This document shows positions 16,804-35,710 of a stretch of DNA of 52,462 bases, one piece after another. The translations under genes and the position numbers were made by a program. The stretch is from contig JAAEMR010000066.1 of NCBI GenBank assembly GCA_024225395.1, positions 1 to 52,462 of the forward strand, in the 5' to 3' direction. The notes under the pieces were generated by a model. The model made no database searches. It saw only the letters and a list, made by a program, of their open reading frames with translations, and was not told the DNA's origin. The stretch is from Gammaproteobacteria bacterium (GTDB lineage Bacteria > Pseudomonadota > Gammaproteobacteria > GCA-001735895). Each line of letters starts with the position of its first letter. The first letter of the stretch is position 1.

Positions 16804-19059
16804 ATGCAACCCGTTCCCTGTCTACGACTGTTTAATGATGAAGAAGATTTTTCTGACCTTGATGAAGGGGATGAAGCTTTAGGTCTGGCTGAACTGTATT
16901 TCGATTATGTCGGCATAAAAGTCAATCCGCTGGATGATAAAACCGAGTTTTCATTAGTTACGAAAATAGGAACCAAAAAAATCACTCGTAATCTCGAAGC
17001 TGAAGAACTTATTCTCAACAGGCTGGATAAAATGGGTTTAATGGCTGACGAGTTTGAAAGTGAAGGGGATACTCTGCGTTTAGAACCTGTTCATATCAAG
17101 GATACCTGGTTTAACTTTATGGTACATCATAAAGCTGAGCTGGAAGCTGAAGACTGGAGAATAGATGTTGAAAAAAATTTTTCCTACCAGTTTGAAGTTG
17201 CAGAAAAATGGTATGCAAACATTACAGATGAAAGCAGCGACTGGTTTAAGCTGGAGCTGGGTATAGAGTCTGAAGGGGAGCAATTAAACCTGCTGCCTTT
17301 TCTGGTCGATTTTCTCTCAGACTATCTAACTGAGGATGAAACGGCGAAAGTACAGGCATTACCAGACGATCATCCACTGTTATATAAGCAGGATAATGAA
17401 CGTATATCGAATATCGCTTTTTATAAAGTACGTTTTATTATCGATACCTTGATTGAATTAAATGATCCGGAAGTACTGGATCAGGATGGCAAGCTTAAAC
17501 TTTCTCGCTTCCAGAGTAATCAGCTTTCTCTATTAGAAGCAGGGCACCCGAACATCAACTGGACGGGCGGTGAAAAAATTAGGGATTTTGGTGATAAATT
17601 ACAGAATTTTGAAGGCATAGCAGAAGCTAAAGTCCCTGATAATTTAAAAGCTGAGTTACGTCATTATCAGCTAGATGGATTAAGCTGGTTACAGTTTCTT
17701 CGCGAATACAAACTTGGTGGTATTCTGGCGGATGATATGGGCCTGGGAAAAACAGTTCAGACTCTGGCTCATTTACTCATCGAGAAAAATGAACAGCGTG
17801 CAGACTTACCCAGCCTGGTCATAGCACCGACCAGTTTAATGGTAAACTGGAAAAGAGAGGCGGCTCGTTTCGCTCCGGATTTGAAGGTGCTGGTTTTACA
17901 TGGTGCCGGTCGAAAAAACCTGTTTGACCAGATCGAATCTAATGATCTTATTTTAACCACTTACCCTCTGCTAACCCGGGATGCTGAAGTATTATTAAAT
18001 CAGCAATGGCACATGACTATTCTGGATGAAGCTCAGCATATTAAAAACCCCAAATCGAAAGCGGCCCAAACGGCATGTTTGTTAAAAACTCGATTTCGGT
18101 TGTGTTTAACAGGTACTCCAATGGAGAATCATCTGGGTGAATTGTGGTCTCAATTTCATTTCTTGATGCCGGATATGCTTAAAGATGAAAAAAGTTTTCA
18201 GAAGTTATACCGTACTCCGATAGAAAAAAAGCAGGATCAATCGCGCCAGCTACAGTTAAAAAATCGTCTTTCTCCATTTATGTTAAGGAGAGATAAATCA
18301 GAGGTGGCGACTGAGCTGCCTCCCAAGACAGAAATACTCAGCGAAGTTGAACTGGAAGGTGCCCAGCGTGACCTGTATGAAAAAATTCGTTTGTCGATGC
18401 AGGATAAGGTTAAACAAAGTGTCGATAGTAAAGGTTTATCCAGAAGCCATATCGTTATTCTTGATGCGCTATTAAAACTCAGACAGGTTTGCTGTCATCC
18501 ACAGTTGATTAAAAATTCTGATTATAACCTTCCGAAACATTCGGCCAAGTTAAATCAGTTAATGGAAATGTTACCTGAAATGGTAGAAGAGGGGCGTCGC
18601 ATTCTGCTATTCTCACAATTTACCAGTATGCTTGCGATTATCGAATCAGAATTAACAACGCATAAAATTGACTATGTGAAACTAACCGGACAAACACGTA
18701 ATCGAGAGAAGCCGGTTGATGCATTTCAGTCCGGTAAGGTTCCGATATTTTTAATCAGTCTCAAAGCCGGTGGTTCAGGGTTGAATTTAACCGCCGCCGA
18801 TACCGTTATACATTATGACCCCTGGTGGAATCCTGCAGCTGAACGACAGGCTACCGATCGTGCGCATCGAATAGGTCAGGATAAACCTATTTTTGTGTAT
18901 AAAATGATTACATCAGGAACTGTCGAAGATAAAATAATCGATATGCAAAATAAAAAACAGGCTTTGGCTGATTCGCTGTTCTCCGAAGATCAAAAAACAT
19001 CGGCTATTACTAATGAAGATTTACGCTCCCTGTTTGAGCCATTAGCAAAAGAGCAATGA
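16804..19059 (+). CDS. SNF2-family DEAD/DEAH-box ATPase, short paralogue without SWIM domain
   Basis: SNF2/RapA-type double-stranded-DNA translocase of 751 residues. Helicase motif I is D-D-M-G-L-G-K-T (about 309-316), motif II is D-E-A-Q at 408-411, motif III contains L-T-G-T-P-M-E-N, and motifs V-VI are L-K-A-G-G-S-G-L-N-L and A-T-D-R-A-H-R-I-G-Q near the C-terminus. Residues 1-750 align by eye along their whole length with the C-terminal 750 of the next gene, starting at the shared P-V-P-C-L. The SWIM-bearing N-terminus of that paralogue is absent. The ATG at 16804 has no clear ribosome site. Bacterial SNF2 proteins act on DNA or nucleoprotein in transcription or repair; the specific role here is unknown. 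Confidence 0.88.
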   Translation: MQPVPCLRLFNDEEDFSDLDEGDEALGLAELYFDYVGIKVNPLDDKTEFSLVTKIGTKKITRNLEAEELILNRLDKMGLMADEFESEGDTLRLEPVHIKDTWFNFMVHHKAELEAEDWRIDVEKNFSYQFEVAEKWYANITDESSDWFKLELGIESEGEQLNLLPFLVDFLSDYLTEDETAKVQALPDDHPLLYKQDNERISNIAFYKVRFIIDTLIELNDPEVLDQDGKLKLSRFQSNQLSLLEAGHPNINWTGGEKIRDFGDKLQNFEGIAEAKVPDNLKAELRHYQLDGLSWLQFLREYKLGGILADDMGLGKTVQTLAHLLIEKNEQRADLPSLVIAPTSLMVNWKREAARFAPDLKVLVLHGAGRKNLFDQIESNDLILTTYPLLTRDAEVLLNQQWHMTILDEAQHIKNPKSKAAQTACLLKTRFRLCLTGTPMENHLGELWSQFHFLMPDMLKDEKSFQKLYRTPIEKKQDQSRQLQLKNRLSPFMLRRDKSEVATELPPKTEILSEVELEGAQRDLYEKIRLSMQDKVKQSVDSKGLSRSHIVILDALLKLRQVCCHPQLIKNSDYNLPKHSAKLNQLMEMLPEMVEEGRRILLFSQFTSMLAIIESELTTHKIDYVKLTGQTRNREKPVDAFQSGKVPIFLISLKAGGSGLNLTAADTVIHYDPWWNPAAERQATDRAHRIGQDKPIFVYKMITSGTVEDKIIDMQNKKQALADSLFSEDQKTSAITNEDLRSLFEPLAKEQ

Positions 19060-22000
19060 ATCTAACCGTAAAAGATTTATTGTCTTTTTTTAAACCTGCC
19101 TATATGCAGAGAGGGCGAGTTTATTTTGAGCAGAACATGGTTCTTAATACTGAAAAACATCACGGTGGCTCTGTAATAACGGCGTCAGTAAAAGGTGCAG
19201 GAAATAATACTTACTCATTAAGAATTGAACTGGAATCCAGGGGCAGATCCGTCGTTGATATTCAGGGTAACTGTTCCTGCCCGGTTTCTTATAACTGCAA
19301 ACATGTTGTTGCAGCTCTATTGCACTTTATAGAGAAAAATCCACCGGCACAGGATGATATGTTCGGCCTGCCATCAGATAAATGGTTGTATCAACTTAAA
19401 TCTGCACAACAGCAGCCTTCCGAAAAACAGCCCGTGTCTAATGAAATGGTGTTATACCTGCTACGTACAAATTCATACACTACGGGAACACGCTTTTACG
19501 TCGAGACAGTCAAAGCCCGTCTGAAGAAAGATGGAAGTTTTTCTACTGCAACTCATTGTCAAATAAATCCTTCTTCGAAGGCCCGTTTTATGCGTGAAGA
19601 TGATCAGTTTGCAATGTTGTTACTAAAATCCTTAATGGAGGGAAATGCAGCTCCCTATCCGGTGCTTGAGGGAGAGTCCGGGTTAAAGGCACTTAAGGTA
19701 TTAATTAATACCGGTCGATGTCACTGGTCAGATGAAGAGTACCCGGCAATAAACCATGCAAAAAATATTACCAGTACATTGTCGTGGCATTTTTTATCGG
19801 ATGCCAGCCAGGTCATAAAAGCAGATGCATTAAATGATGAATTTGTTTTAGTACCAGTGACTCCTCCCTGTTATCTCAATACAGAAACAGGAGACTGTGG
19901 TGAACTGGATTGCGGGTTGCCGGAAAAAATAAGTTCGATACTGGTAGCTTCTCCACCTGTACATCCAGAAAATGTAGATAAGGTTTCTAAATTTTTATCT
20001 GAAAGTATCAGTGATCTTAAAATTCCTTTACCGGTAAAACCGGATATACATCACAATGATCAGGTTGAACCTGTTCCCTGTTTGAAACTACTCACCGAGC
20101 AGGTGGGCACATCTTATTATGCAGAGGACGTTGAGCCATTTGTATTTGCCGAATTTCATTTTGATTATAACGGGAAAAAAATTCATCCCTCAGATGATAA
20201 AAGTACATTCATCAGTAAAACCGAAAATGGGTTTGAGGTTATTCATAGAAATACAGAAATCGAACAGCAACTTTTAACAGTTCTCAATGAAACAGGGTTG
20301 CATGAAGCCGATTTGTATACGGAATTTGAAGAAGTTATGCAGCTCGAACCAGATCAGGGAATAGATACCTGGATAGACTTTATGTTGAACCAGCGATTTA
20401 AGCTGGAGTCGGATGGCTGGTCGATAAAAATTACTGAAGATTTTGCTTATCAGATTGATGAAGCGGATGAGTGGTACGCTGATGTAAAGCAGGGCTCGAA
20501 TGAGTGGTTTAAGTTGGAACTGGGTGTAGATATAGATGGTAAAAATATAAACTTACTTCCATTCCTGGTGAATTACCTGGGTTCTCTTAAAGGGACTATG
20601 GGTGTTTCACAGTTGCGGCAATTGCCGGACGATCACCCCATTTTACTAGAGCAGAATAATGGCAGGCTATTGCATATCCCGCTGAGTAAAGTTCGTCATA
20701 TTCTGGATACCTTGATTGAACTTCATGATCCTGATGCCCTGGATCAGGAAGGCAAACTTGAGCTATCTCGTTACCAGAGTAATCAACTTGTGGAGCTTGA
20801 TAATCAACAGACAAAACTGACCTGGGCGGGTGGTGAAACACTCAGAAAATTTGGGGAAAGGCTGCAGAATTTTGAAGGCATTCGTGACATAGCACCTCCT
20901 GCTACGCTTAAAGCTGAATTACGAGACTATCAAAGAGAAGGACTGAACTGGTTACAGTTTTTACGTAAGTACGATTTAAGTGGAATACTTGCTGATGATA
21001 TGGGTCTGGGTAAAACGGTGCAGACTCTGGCGCATTTGCTGGTAGAAAAAAAGTATAAACGTACCGATCTTCCCAGTCTAATCGTTGCTCCAACCAGTCT
21101 GATGGTGAACTGGAGCAGAGAAGCTGCGCGTTTTGCACCTTCCTTAAGCGTACTGGTGTTACAGGGTACAGAGCGCAAAAATAAATTTAACTCGATTAAT
21201 GATTTTGATGTGGTTCTAACAACATATCCTCTACTATCACGCGATACCGAAATTCTGATGAAATATCAGTGGCACCTGGTAATACTGGATGAAGCCCAGC
21301 ATATTAAAAATCCAAAATCAAAAGCTGCACTAACCGCCCGGCAACTGAAAACCAGACATCGTCTATGTCTGACCGGTACACCGATGGAAAATCACCTGGG
21401 TGAGTTATGGTCACAATTCCATTTCTTAATGCCCGGAATGCTGGGGAATGAAAAACGTTTCCGTAGAATTTTTCGTACACCGATTGAAAAATTTCAGGAT
21501 GATTATCGTTCAAAGCAATTAAGCAATCGCATTGCCCCCTTTATGTTGCGACGACATAAATCAGAAGTAGCCACTGAATTGCCTCCAAAGACAGAAATAC
21601 TCAGTCAGGTCGAACTGGATGGGGCACAGCGGGATCTGTATGAAACGATTCGAGTTTCCATGCATGAGAGAGTTAAACAAGCTATTCACAGTAACGGAAT
21701 AGGGCGTAGTCAGATTGTCATTCTTGATGCTTTGCTGAAATTGCGACAGGTTTGTTGTCACCCGCAATTATTAAAGCTATCCAGTGCTAAAAAAGTAAAA
21801 CATTCTGCAAAGCTTAGTCAGTTAATGGAAATGCTGCCAGAAATGGTAGAAGAGGGGCGACGTATTTTATTGTTCTCCCAATTTACCTCGATGCTGGCCA
21901 TTATCGAAAATGAAATTGCTCAGCATAAAATTCCTTATGTGAAACTCACCGGACAGACACGTGACCGTGCTACACCGATTGATAATTTCCAGTCTGGAAA

Positions 22001-22313
22001 GGTGCCGGTGTTCCTGATCAGTTTAAAAGCGGGTGGATCAGGTTTGAATTTAACCGCAGCAGATACTGTTATTCACTATGATCCCTGGTGGAATCCTGCC
22101 GCTGAAAATCAGGCGACTGATAGAGCGCATCGCATAGGTCAGGATAAACCGGTGTTTGTGTATAAAATGATAACAGCGGGTACGGTCGAAGAGAAAATAG
22201 TTGAGATGCAGGTTAAAAAACAGGCACTAGCTGATTCCCTGTTTTCTGAAGGTAGTAAAGGCAGTGCGATCAGCAGTGATGATTTACAGGCATTGTTTGA
22301 ACCACTCAGATAA
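19056..22313 (+). CDS. SNF2-family ATPase with N-terminal SWIM zinc finger
   Basis: SNF2-type DNA translocase of 1085 residues. The N-terminal domain has a SWIM zinc finger, C-S-C-P-V-S-Y-N-C-K-H, with ligands Cys73, Cys75, Cys81 and His83. A linker of about 250 residues without recognised motifs follows. From about residue 334 the protein matches the upstream paralogue: motif I at 647-654 (D-D-M-G-L-G-K-T), D-E-A-Q at 745-748, L-T-G-T-P-M-E-N, and A-T-D-R-A-H-R-I-G-Q. SWIM domains are predicted DNA- or protein-binding zinc sites. The start overlaps the upstream stop (ATGA), so the two are probably co-translated. A terminator follows at once. Confidence 0.92.
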   Translation: MNLTVKDLLSFFKPAYMQRGRVYFEQNMVLNTEKHHGGSVITASVKGAGNNTYSLRIELESRGRSVVDIQGNCSCPVSYNCKHVVAALLHFIEKNPPAQDDMFGLPSDKWLYQLKSAQQQPSEKQPVSNEMVLYLLRTNSYTTGTRFYVETVKARLKKDGSFSTATHCQINPSSKARFMREDDQFAMLLLKSLMEGNAAPYPVLEGESGLKALKVLINTGRCHWSDEEYPAINHAKNITSTLSWHFLSDASQVIKADALNDEFVLVPVTPPCYLNTETGDCGELDCGLPEKISSILVASPPVHPENVDKVSKFLSESISDLKIPLPVKPDIHHNDQVEPVPCLKLLTEQVGTSYYAEDVEPFVFAEFHFDYNGKKIHPSDDKSTFISKTENGFEVIHRNTEIEQQLLTVLNETGLHEADLYTEFEEVMQLEPDQGIDTWIDFMLNQRFKLESDGWSIKITEDFAYQIDEADEWYADVKQGSNEWFKLELGVDIDGKNINLLPFLVNYLGSLKGTMGVSQLRQLPDDHPILLEQNNGRLLHIPLSKVRHILDTLIELHDPDALDQEGKLELSRYQSNQLVELDNQQTKLTWAGGETLRKFGERLQNFEGIRDIAPPATLKAELRDYQREGLNWLQFLRKYDLSGILADDMGLGKTVQTLAHLLVEKKYKRTDLPSLIVAPTSLMVNWSREAARFAPSLSVLVLQGTERKNKFNSINDFDVVLTTYPLLSRDTEILMKYQWHLVILDEAQHIKNPKSKAALTARQLKTRHRLCLTGTPMENHLGELWSQFHFLMPGMLGNEKRFRRIFRTPIEKFQDDYRSKQLSNRIAPFMLRRHKSEVATELPPKTEILSQVELDGAQRDLYETIRVSMHERVKQAIHSNGIGRSQIVILDALLKLRQVCCHPQLLKLSSAKKVKHSAKLSQLMEMLPEMVEEGRRILLFSQFTSMLAIIENEIAQHKIPYVKLTGQTRDRATPIDNFQSGKVPVFLISLKAGGSGLNLTAADTVIHYDPWWNPAAENQATDRAHRIGQDKPVFVYKMITAGTVEEKIVEMQVKKQALADSLFSEGSKGSAISSDDLQALFEPLR

Positions 22314-33009: not shown

Positions 33010-33141
33010 ACTGATAATTAACTTCTACTGCTGATTTGTTTTGCAGTTGACCAGCCAATATGCCGTTATGTTTTACTGTACCTGGTATTGCCGGTCACAA
33101 AATCCCTGCTGTTAGAGGCCAAATCTATTCAGGTTGTTATA

Positions 33142-33540
33142 ATGCAAAATGTAAACTCAACCTTTATTCTGGCAATGTTGTTATCGGGTTGTGCTACAGA
33201 CCCGTATTCTATTATTGAAGGCGGTCGCAGCAGCATGACAGATCGAAATAGCTTTGATGTTATTATTTCAGGAGTTGACGGGAAAAAATATTTTAAAAAT
33301 GAAAAAACTAAATATGTAGATCCAGGCCCTCACCGCGTTGAGCTGACGTCAACAAAGCTTGATAGGGGAGGGGATGTCACTTATAAGTCATGGTATTTTA
33401 AGGCTGAGCCCTGCAAAAGGTATGTCGTTGCGGCGAAACACTCAAAAACTCAACCGTTTAGTAATGAACACTGGGAAGTCGACCTGCTAAGAGTTGAGCC
33501 TGTCCCTTCCTGTGAGCACCTGTTAGAAAATAAAAAGTGA
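33142..33540 (+). CDS. Small putative lipoprotein of unknown function
   Basis: About 132 residues from the ATG at 33142. The N-terminus M-Q-N-V-N-S-T-F-I-L-A-M-L-L-S-G-C-A ends in a lipobox (L-S-G-C), so the mature protein would begin with lipidated Cys followed by A-T-D. The n-region lacks Lys or Arg, which is unusual. A frame open further upstream (TTG at 33088) gives no better leader. The mature part has a P-G-P-H-R-V-E-L-T-S motif like periplasmic beta-sandwich domains, and two Cys, in E-P-C-K-R-Y and P-S-C-E-H, that may pair. Function not recognised. Confidence 0.65.
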   Translation: MQNVNSTFILAMLLSGCATDPYSIIEGGRSSMTDRNSFDVIISGVDGKKYFKNEKTKYVDPGPHRVELTSTKLDRGGDVTYKSWYFKAEPCKRYVVAAKHSKTQPFSNEHWEVDLLRVEPVPSCEHLLENKK

Positions 33541-33656: not shown

Positions 33657-34595
33657 TTAAACACTGGACTGCCCTAAGGCTCCCAGTAGTCCAGCGCCAC
33701 GTGATTTTGGAACATCGGTGATGTGTCTTATCTCTCGACTTCTTTTAATCAGGTCATGAATCAGCGGCATGAGTATCACTTCGATGGTTCCAATCATCAT
33801 TCCTCCAGGCACCACCAGCGTGTTGCTTCTGCTCAAAAATGAGCCCGGTAACATCTCAAGCAATTCATTGATATTCGGCATTTTTACATTCTGAAAATGA
33901 ATCACGAGAAAACACTCATCCTTGTCTGGTTCCTGTTCCACGGCAAAAGGGTCAGAGGTATCGACCGTCGCCACCATTTGTATATTGATGTGAGTGCGTG
34001 AAAACTGAGGTGTGATATGGCAAACATAATCAGACATGCGGCGCAGAATAGCTTCGCGTACTGCTGTGCGAGAATAACCTCGTAATGATGTGTCACGTTT
34101 GATTTTACGAATCCATTCCAGGTTTACATTCGGCACCATGCCGATGAGTAAATCCGGGTAGCTGGAAATGTCGATATCGCCGTCAATTGCCGCGCCATGT
34201 AGTCCACGGTAGAGTAATAAATCCGTATCACTGTCAAGTTCTTCCCAGGGGGTTAAAGTTCCTGGTTTCTGGCCCCACTCGTCCGCGATTACTTCTGAAT
34301 GAAGGTAATATCGATACATACCTGTACCAGTTGCCGCATATTGATAAAAGAGGCTTTCGAGTTTATCCAGATGATTTGCAGCGGGGGAGAAATGCGTTAA
34401 ATCCCAGCCTTCTTTTTCGGCTTTATCTTCCTGCTCTTTCATTTCCTTTCGCTCATAACGGTGAAAAGCACTGCCTTGAATATAGGCGGCTTTTACTCGT
34501 TCACGAAAGAAAATGTGCTCAAAAGCTTTGGTGATTGATGAACTACCAGATCCAGATGCTCCGGTTATGGCAACTATAGGAAATTTTTCAGACAT
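33657..34595 (-). CDS. Phosphoribulokinase-family protein with altered active site
   Basis: 312 residues, clearly homologous along its length to the proteobacterial (class I) phosphoribulokinase/PrkB family, which phosphorylates ribulose 5-phosphate. Conserved features: P-loop T-G-A-S-G-S-G-S-S at 11-19, F-H-R-Y at 44-47 with Arg49, N-L-E-W-I-R-K-I-K-R-D at 158-168 (equivalents of Lys165 and Asp169), I-T-P-Q-F-S-R-T-H-I-N and V-V-P-G-G. Two acidic positions differ. Residue 42, the catalytic Asp of the Rhodobacter enzyme (usual motif E-G-D-S-F-H-R-Y), is Ser in I-Q-G-S-A-F-H-R-Y. The Glu of F-Y-E-G-L-H-G is Arg130 in L-Y-R-G-L-H-G. I checked both codons on the - strand (AGT and CGT). The C-terminus is about 20 residues longer than usual. 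It may be inactive or have another substrate. No other Calvin-cycle gene is nearby. Confidence 0.85.
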   Translation of the reverse strand: MSEKFPIVAITGASGSGSSSITKAFEHIFFRERVKAAYIQGSAFHRYERKEMKEQEDKAEKEGWDLTHFSPAANHLDKLESLFYQYAATGTGMYRYYLHSEVIADEWGQKPGTLTPWEELDSDTDLLLYRGLHGAAIDGDIDISSYPDLLIGMVPNVNLEWIRKIKRDTSLRGYSRTAVREAILRRMSDYVCHITPQFSRTHINIQMVATVDTSDPFAVEQEPDKDECFLVIHFQNVKMPNINELLEMLPGSFLSRSNTLVVPGGMMIGTIEVILMPLIHDLIKRSREIRHITDVPKSRGAGLLGALGQSSV

Positions 34596-35008: not shown

Positions 35009-35710
35009 ATGACAGATGAATTATTTAGAAAAGATGGTTATTTAAAGAATTGTGATAGCCTGGTGATTGCCGTCGATGGTGTTTCTGTTGTGCTGGATCG
35101 AACCGTGTTTTATCCAACCGGTGGTGGTCAACCGGGTGACACGGGTGTGATGGAATATGCCGATGGAACGGCAGTTCATATTATCGATACAGTTAAAACT
35201 GAATCAGGCATAGCACATGTACTGGAAGAGGGCGTTAGCCCGCCTGCTATCGGTGATACGGTAACGGTTGAAATAGACTGGTTACGCCGACATAAATTGA
35301 TGCGCATGCATTCCTGCATGCATTTACTTTGTTCTATAGTGCCTTTCGGGGTCACGGGTGGTTCGATTCGGGAAGACAGTGCAAGACTTGATTTTGATGC
35401 TCAGGATCCGATGGATAAAGAAGCTATTAATACCGAGTTGAATCGCCGTATAGAAGAAGATTACCCGATGACGATGCGCTGGATTACAGAAGAAGAACTG
35501 GATGCTCAGCCAGATTTAGTACGCACTATGTCAGTCCAGCCTCCGAGAGGTACGGGTTCGATTCGGCTGGTGAACTTTGAAGGTGTTGACCTGCAGCCCT
35601 GTGGTGGAACTCATGTGAAGTCCACAGCTGAAATTGGTGCAGTCAGAATTCGAAAGATAGAAAAAAAAGGTAAGCACAACAGGCGTGTTAATATAGTTTT
35701 TGATGAATAG
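35009..35710 (+). CDS. AlaX-type alanyl-tRNA editing protein
   Basis: Free-standing editing domain related to that of alanyl-tRNA synthetase, 233 residues. It hydrolyses Ser or Gly wrongly attached to tRNA-Ala. Zinc-binding residues are visible: His101 and His105 in M-H-S-C-M-H-L-L, and Cys198 and His202 in C-G-G-T-H. The N-terminal F-Y-P-T-G-G-G-Q-P-G-D-T-G is the family hallmark. Ribosome site GAGAAG precedes the ATG. The gene converges on the hydrolase gene, with a 20-bp palindrome across the junction. Confidence 0.93.
   Translation: MTDELFRKDGYLKNCDSLVIAVDGVSVVLDRTVFYPTGGGQPGDTGVMEYADGTAVHIIDTVKTESGIAHVLEEGVSPPAIGDTVTVEIDWLRRHKLMRMHSCMHLLCSIVPFGVTGGSIREDSARLDFDAQDPMDKEAINTELNRRIEEDYPMTMRWITEEELDAQPDLVRTMSVQPPRGTGSIRLVNFEGVDLQPCGGTHVKSTAEIGAVRIRKIEKKGKHNRRVNIVFDE

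Follow-up and report, generated by a model that had tools for sequence, protein, structure and literature searches.

The window analyzed here, by which we mean the entire stretch of 52,462 nucleotides, contains a homologue of phosphoribulokinase (PRK), the enzyme that commits carbon to the Calvin (CBB) cycle, in which two acidic active-site residues are replaced. This raises the question of whether the encoded protein is still a kinase and, if it is not, which function it fulfills.

A PRK homologue with two replaced active-site acids

The ORF, which encodes a protein of 312 amino acids, matched the Pfam profile PF00485 (PRK) with an E value of 4e-52 and scored 391 bits against NF011997, the NCBIfam equivalog of bacterial phosphoribulokinase, for which the cut-off is 362. 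A phmmer search of the PDB revealed the PRK of Rhodobacter sphaeroides (1a7j) as the best solved relative (E value of 9e-79, query residues 1-287). The alignment with 1a7j confirmed the two replacements reported in a preliminary description of this DNA, namely, Ser for Asp42 and Arg (query residue 130) for Glu131 of the FYEGLHG motif. The description had also stated that M1 to G41 align without gaps and that the numbering is exact at position 42, which agrees with a first gap only after residue 63. The sugar-phosphate-binding Arg and His residues and the equivalents of Lys165 and Asp169, described there as kept, are indeed present, as seen in H45, R49, H99 (H100 in R. sphaeroides), K164 (K165), and R167/D168 (R168/D169). 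An Asp residue is the catalytic base of PRK, as given in plant and algal numbering (PMC9978339), and the equivalents of R49, Y98, and H100 hold the phosphate of ribulose 5-phosphate (Ru5P) (PMC5241800). The features of the gene are as follows:

33657..34595, minus strand: PRK-homologue ORF with Ser42/Arg130, 312 aa, ATG start (Pfam PRK and NCBIfam NF011997)
34539..34565, minus strand: P-loop T11-S19, TGASGSGSS (canonical, TGSSGAGT[ST]); more degraded in several orthologues
34470..34472, minus strand: Ser42, replacing the catalytic base Asp42 (alignments)
34449..34451, minus strand: Arg49, equivalent of a Ru5P-phosphate-binding residue, invariant in the clade (alignments; role according to PMC5241800)
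34299..34307, minus strand: Tyr97-Leu98-His99 (R. sphaeroides Tyr98 and His100), Ru5P-phosphate-binding equivalents, Tyr and His being invariant in the clade (role according to PMC5241800)
34206..34208, minus strand: Arg130, replacing Glu131 of FYEGLHG; present in 32/32 aligned clade members
34035..34109, minus strand: lid helix R163-M187 (K164, R167, D168, R172, R185, R186); catalytic residues kept in the query and lost in some orthologues
33660..33740, minus strand: C-terminal tail, residues 286-312 (SREIRHITDVPKSRGAGLLGALGQSSV), conserved in the clade and without counterpart in ordinary PRKs

An AlphaFold model built with 12 sequences had a pLDDT of 78 and a pTM of 0.79, with low confidence at the active-site loops and the last five residues. 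Its top PDB match in Foldseek was again 1a7j (E value of 6e-29, TM score of 0.81 by target length). The model supports a PRK fold and does not bear on the mechanism.

The gene is a stand-alone paralogue in a genome with a canonical PRK

As noted in the preliminary description, RuBisCO or CBB genes are not adjacent; inspection of the ORFs in the 52-kb window revealed none, and no RNA element was found beside the gene. A small plus-strand ORF (33088-33540) is convergent with it, and 413 bases separate it from a divergent gene at 35009. Elsewhere in the window (16804-22313) lie two tandem SNF2-type helicase genes with overlapping ends, which are apparently duplicated (Pfam assignment of the first).

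A second, canonical prk, proposed earlier as something to look for, is present in the source assembly. It encodes 295 amino acids, has Asp42 and Glu131, and is located on contig C69 at about 7 kb from the RuBisCO large-subunit gene cbbM. The order on this contig is a LysR/CbbR-like regulator (on the opposite strand), cbbM, CbbQ, a VWA protein (CbbO-like), further ORFs, and prk, a neighborhood that links the canonical PRK to the CBB cycle. Another RuBisCO gene is found elsewhere in the genome. The window gene is a stand-alone paralogue.

Distribution of the variant

The variant was detected in 36 gammaproteobacterial genomes, which belong to the source genus, gill symbionts of Solemya, sediment metagenome-assembled genomes (MAGs), and the family f75. 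Orthologues with the same residues, a search for which had been suggested, therefore exist. Four further genomes of the source genus carry proteins with 88, 82, 75, and 82% (partial) identity, all with Arg130 and with S, S, N, and D, respectively, at position 42. Scanning genomes with an alignment of the clade retrieved relatives of 60-65% identity from the gill symbionts of Solemya velum and S. elarraichensis and from sediment MAGs, all of which have Ser42 and Arg130. A DNA pattern of the motif matched 2 of 369 genomes across the class, one being the source genome and the other leading to f75. In this family the variant is present in 24 of 63 genomes, including all 16 of genus g278, several of which are closed. 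A large draw of genomes from the family of the Solemya symbiont yielded no carriers beyond those known. The variant is patchily distributed but occurs repeatedly.

A canonical-type PRK accompanies the variant in 35 of the 36 carriers, the exception being a MAG that is 79% complete; the residues of the second copy were read for the source genus, the Solemya group, and six f75 genomes. Of the carriers, 31 were found to have RuBisCO; it was not detected in 5, one of which is 96% complete (the completeness of the sediment MAGs is unknown). Within f75, RuBisCO was present in 22 of 24 carriers versus 24 of 39 noncarriers (Fisher P = 0.01, uncorrected for phylogeny). The loci inspected showed no conserved operon partner, and their neighborhoods were neither conserved nor CBB linked.

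Each g278 genome contains two PRKs together with one to three RuBisCO genes, which fits an assignment of f75 to Thiotrichaceae. An assignment to the purple sulfur bacteria was rejected, as a photosynthetic reaction center gene is absent from the 63 genomes.

The variants form one old clade under purifying selection

In the phylogenetic tree, the variants formed a single clade of 35 rows with a support of 100/100. Constraining the variants and the canonical PRKs of f75 to group with each other cost 211 log units (p-AU of 2e-50), by which a recent or local duplication of the family's own prk was rejected. The clade is thus one ancient paralogue rather than a set of local duplicates.

The ORFs are intact in nearly all of the 36 carrier genomes, and pairwise dN/dS values were 0.016-0.115 for the variants and 0.022-0.069 for the canonical genes, although several pairs are near dS saturation. 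This strong purifying selection is in agreement with the earlier view that the gene is not decaying. The progressive loss of catalytic residues is what a decaying gene or pseudogene would show, but the dN/dS values contradict this explanation, and the intact ORFs, the invariant R130, and the conserved tail make it scarcely conceivable.

The PrkB proteins of Escherichia coli and Aeromonas fall on the variant side of a branch with 98/91 support in this unrooted tree. The variant could accordingly be of the PrkB type and have a housekeeping role outside the CBB cycle, as is presumed for E. coli PrkB, since E. coli lacks RuBisCO. The two share common residues, such as SRTHxN and VIHF, and a gene for a YheT-like hydrolase is located one gene away in the window, as compared to the adjacent yheT-yheU-prkB in E. 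coli; a YheT-like gene also lies a few genes from the variant in genome G038. However, the proximity to yheT does not extend to other families, E. coli PrkB has D42 and E131 and no tail, and most carriers possess RuBisCO. We therefore consider a housekeeping role of this type fairly unlikely.

Loss of catalytic residues and conservation of the sugar-phosphate site

The preliminary description had proposed an alignment with characterized PRK and PrkB proteins. Here, 32 aligned variants were compared with 67 canonical type I PRKs. All 67 canonical proteins have Asp42 and Glu131. Among the variants, position 42 is occupied by Ser in 28, Asn in 3, and Gly in 1, with Asp in none, whereas position 131 is Arg in 32/32 and Glu in 0/32. 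One additional partial variant from the source genus, outside the 32 (L009, G036:C172), combines Asp42 with Arg130, which indicates that the two replacements are separable.

Other catalytic residues were retained to a variable extent: Lys165 in 26, Asp169 in 25, Arg168 in 24, His45 in 23, and Arg186 in 3 of the 32 variants, and P-loop residues (Gly or Ser) are missing in some. With respect to 13 catalytic and ATP-binding residues, the query keeps 11, and only 5 to 8 are left in many orthologues. R49, Y98, and H100 are present in all 32 variants. The same applies to Gly302, which lies within a tail of about 20 residues at the C terminus that follows the pattern SRxLRxITxVPxxRGAGxLG in most variants and is absent from canonical PRKs.

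These data bear on the possibility that the protein is an active kinase whose substrate or mechanism has changed, Arg130 and Ser42 adapting the pocket to another sugar phosphate. In favor of this, the source genus keeps the P-loop, K165, R168, D169, and the lid arginines, and purifying selection is strong; the 11 of 13 residues kept in the query would be compatible with residual ATP binding or another phosphotransfer. However, with both acids gone, no residue is evident that could serve as base or Mg ligand, and P-loop Gly/Ser residues, K165, R168, or D169 are missing from orthologues that share R130 and the tail, so that a single kinase chemistry cannot account for the features kept by the clade. 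Such an activity appears unlikely. The preliminary description had left open a changed reaction, substrate, or regulatory role; a noncatalytic sensor or regulator fits better, and a new kinase reaction or substrate is less supported, because orthologues in another family without P-loop and lid catalytic residues still keep R130, the sugar-phosphate residues, and the tail, and phosphotransfer is thus not the common trait of the clade.

A slow or conditional PRK isozyme is more improbable still. The query and several other members pass the NF011997 cut-off, and second copies in Thiothrix are annotated as prk (PMC9455678), but the catalytic base is missing, half of the catalytic residues are gone in several members, and a canonical PRK already exists in nearly every carrier. 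The cut-off is passed by the degenerate members L062, L066, L102, and P0001, with others just below it; degenerate members are hence likely to be annotated as the phosphoribulokinase enzyme, and prk counts from standard profiles overstate the number of working kinases.

Several related sequences deviate from both groups. L087 (G413:C29) has Asp42, Gln131, and, like the variants, Ser at P-loop position 18, and is tail-less; it possibly represents an intermediate state, its position in the tree being uncertain. The canonical f75 PRKs L122-L127 and L084 have FHSLSR or FHGVTR in place of FHRYxR near Arg49, irrespective of the presence of the variant in the genome. In the family group of the Solemya symbiont, L217-L221 (G544, G501, G547, G575, and G475) are other PRK paralogues, in which about 28 residues are inserted behind FYEGLHG. 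Four of them have Asn42, Asp/Glu131, and Arg45, and the fifth has Asp42 and Lys131; the corresponding genomes have up to three PRK copies. In these paralogues, PRK may have degenerated a second time and independently.

A proposed PRK-derived pseudokinase as the best explanation

Taken together, the comparisons describe a real, conserved, and catalytically degenerate PRK paralogue and strongly indicate that ordinary PRK chemistry is lost. Our best guess is a regulatory role. Specifically, we give about an even chance to the window protein being a conserved PRK-derived pseudokinase that binds a sugar phosphate and probably acts on the CBB cycle or on PRK, the partner and the effect being inferred. 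In favor of this reading are, besides the residue pattern, the tail, and the selection, the canonical PRK in 35 of 36 carriers, the higher frequency of RuBisCO among f75 carriers, and the CBB-linked position of the canonical prk in the source genome. Points against it are the 11 of 13 catalytic and ATP-binding residues kept in the query, the Asp42 of L009, the 5 carriers in which RuBisCO was not detected, the neighborhoods without CBB genes in the loci inspected, and the low-confidence active-site loops of the model. Three steps can be distinguished. First, the protein very likely lacks ordinary Ru5P kinase activity, since neither the catalytic base nor the FYEGLHG acid is present, the latter always being replaced by Arg. 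Second, since the Ru5P-phosphate residues are invariant, the chances are slightly in favor of a pentose phosphate still being bound. Arg130 could supply a positive charge near the former Mg-phosphate site, which would make Ru5P and RuBP possible ligands. Third, and more tentatively, the ligand signal might pass via the C-terminal domain and the new tail to a partner, which would most likely be the cell's own PRK, through a mixed oligomer or a regulatory contact, or another CBB component. The window protein would then sense or regulate the cycle and not act as an enzyme.

Some sulfur-oxidizing CO2 fixers possess, in addition to their normal PRK, such a look-alike, which would probably sense or regulate instead of catalyze. 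If regulatory, the protein would represent a new layer of control in chemoautotrophs, including animal symbionts.

Comparison with known systems

A search of the available literature on phosphoribulokinase as a pseudoenzyme or pseudokinase retrieved no relevant paper. In plants and cyanobacteria, PRK has a regulatory partner, CP12, which would be analogous to the variant if the latter regulates PRK, although no sequence relation between them was seen. A bacterial control in the style of CP12, in which a pseudokinase derived from PRK itself reads the level of Ru5P or RuBP with its former active site, Arg130 being on the second phosphate, and tunes the active PRK via mixed oligomers and the tail, is conceivable but, in this specific form, rather unlikely.

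The window protein resembles the type I octameric PRK of R. sphaeroides (1A7J) in 46% identity, a collinear fold, and the conservation of R49, Y98, and H100, but differs from it in Ser42, the Arg at the equivalent of position 131, the conserved tail of about 20 residues, and a gene that is not near cbb genes. With E. coli PrkB (b3355), it shares 48% identity, PrkB-like residues, and, in the window, a gene position near a yheT-like gene, whereas PrkB has retained both acids and is tail-less.

Thiothrix genomes are reported to contain two phylogenetically different prk copies, with prk1 and prk2 tabulated for Thiothrix, Thiocaldithrix, and Thiolinea, and prk1 alone for Thiofilum, which lacks RuBisCO (PMC9455678, PMC10532065). 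The portions of these papers considered here present prk2 as a divergent copy only and do not mention residue loss. Similarly, f75 carries a canonical PRK and the variant, both in 16/16 g278 genomes. Thiothrix prk2 thus probably belongs to the same subfamily as the window variant, the match of f75 to Thiotrichaceae being inferred. Some Thiothrix-like bacteria are cultured, and the presence of the variant in them would make its role testable in the laboratory.
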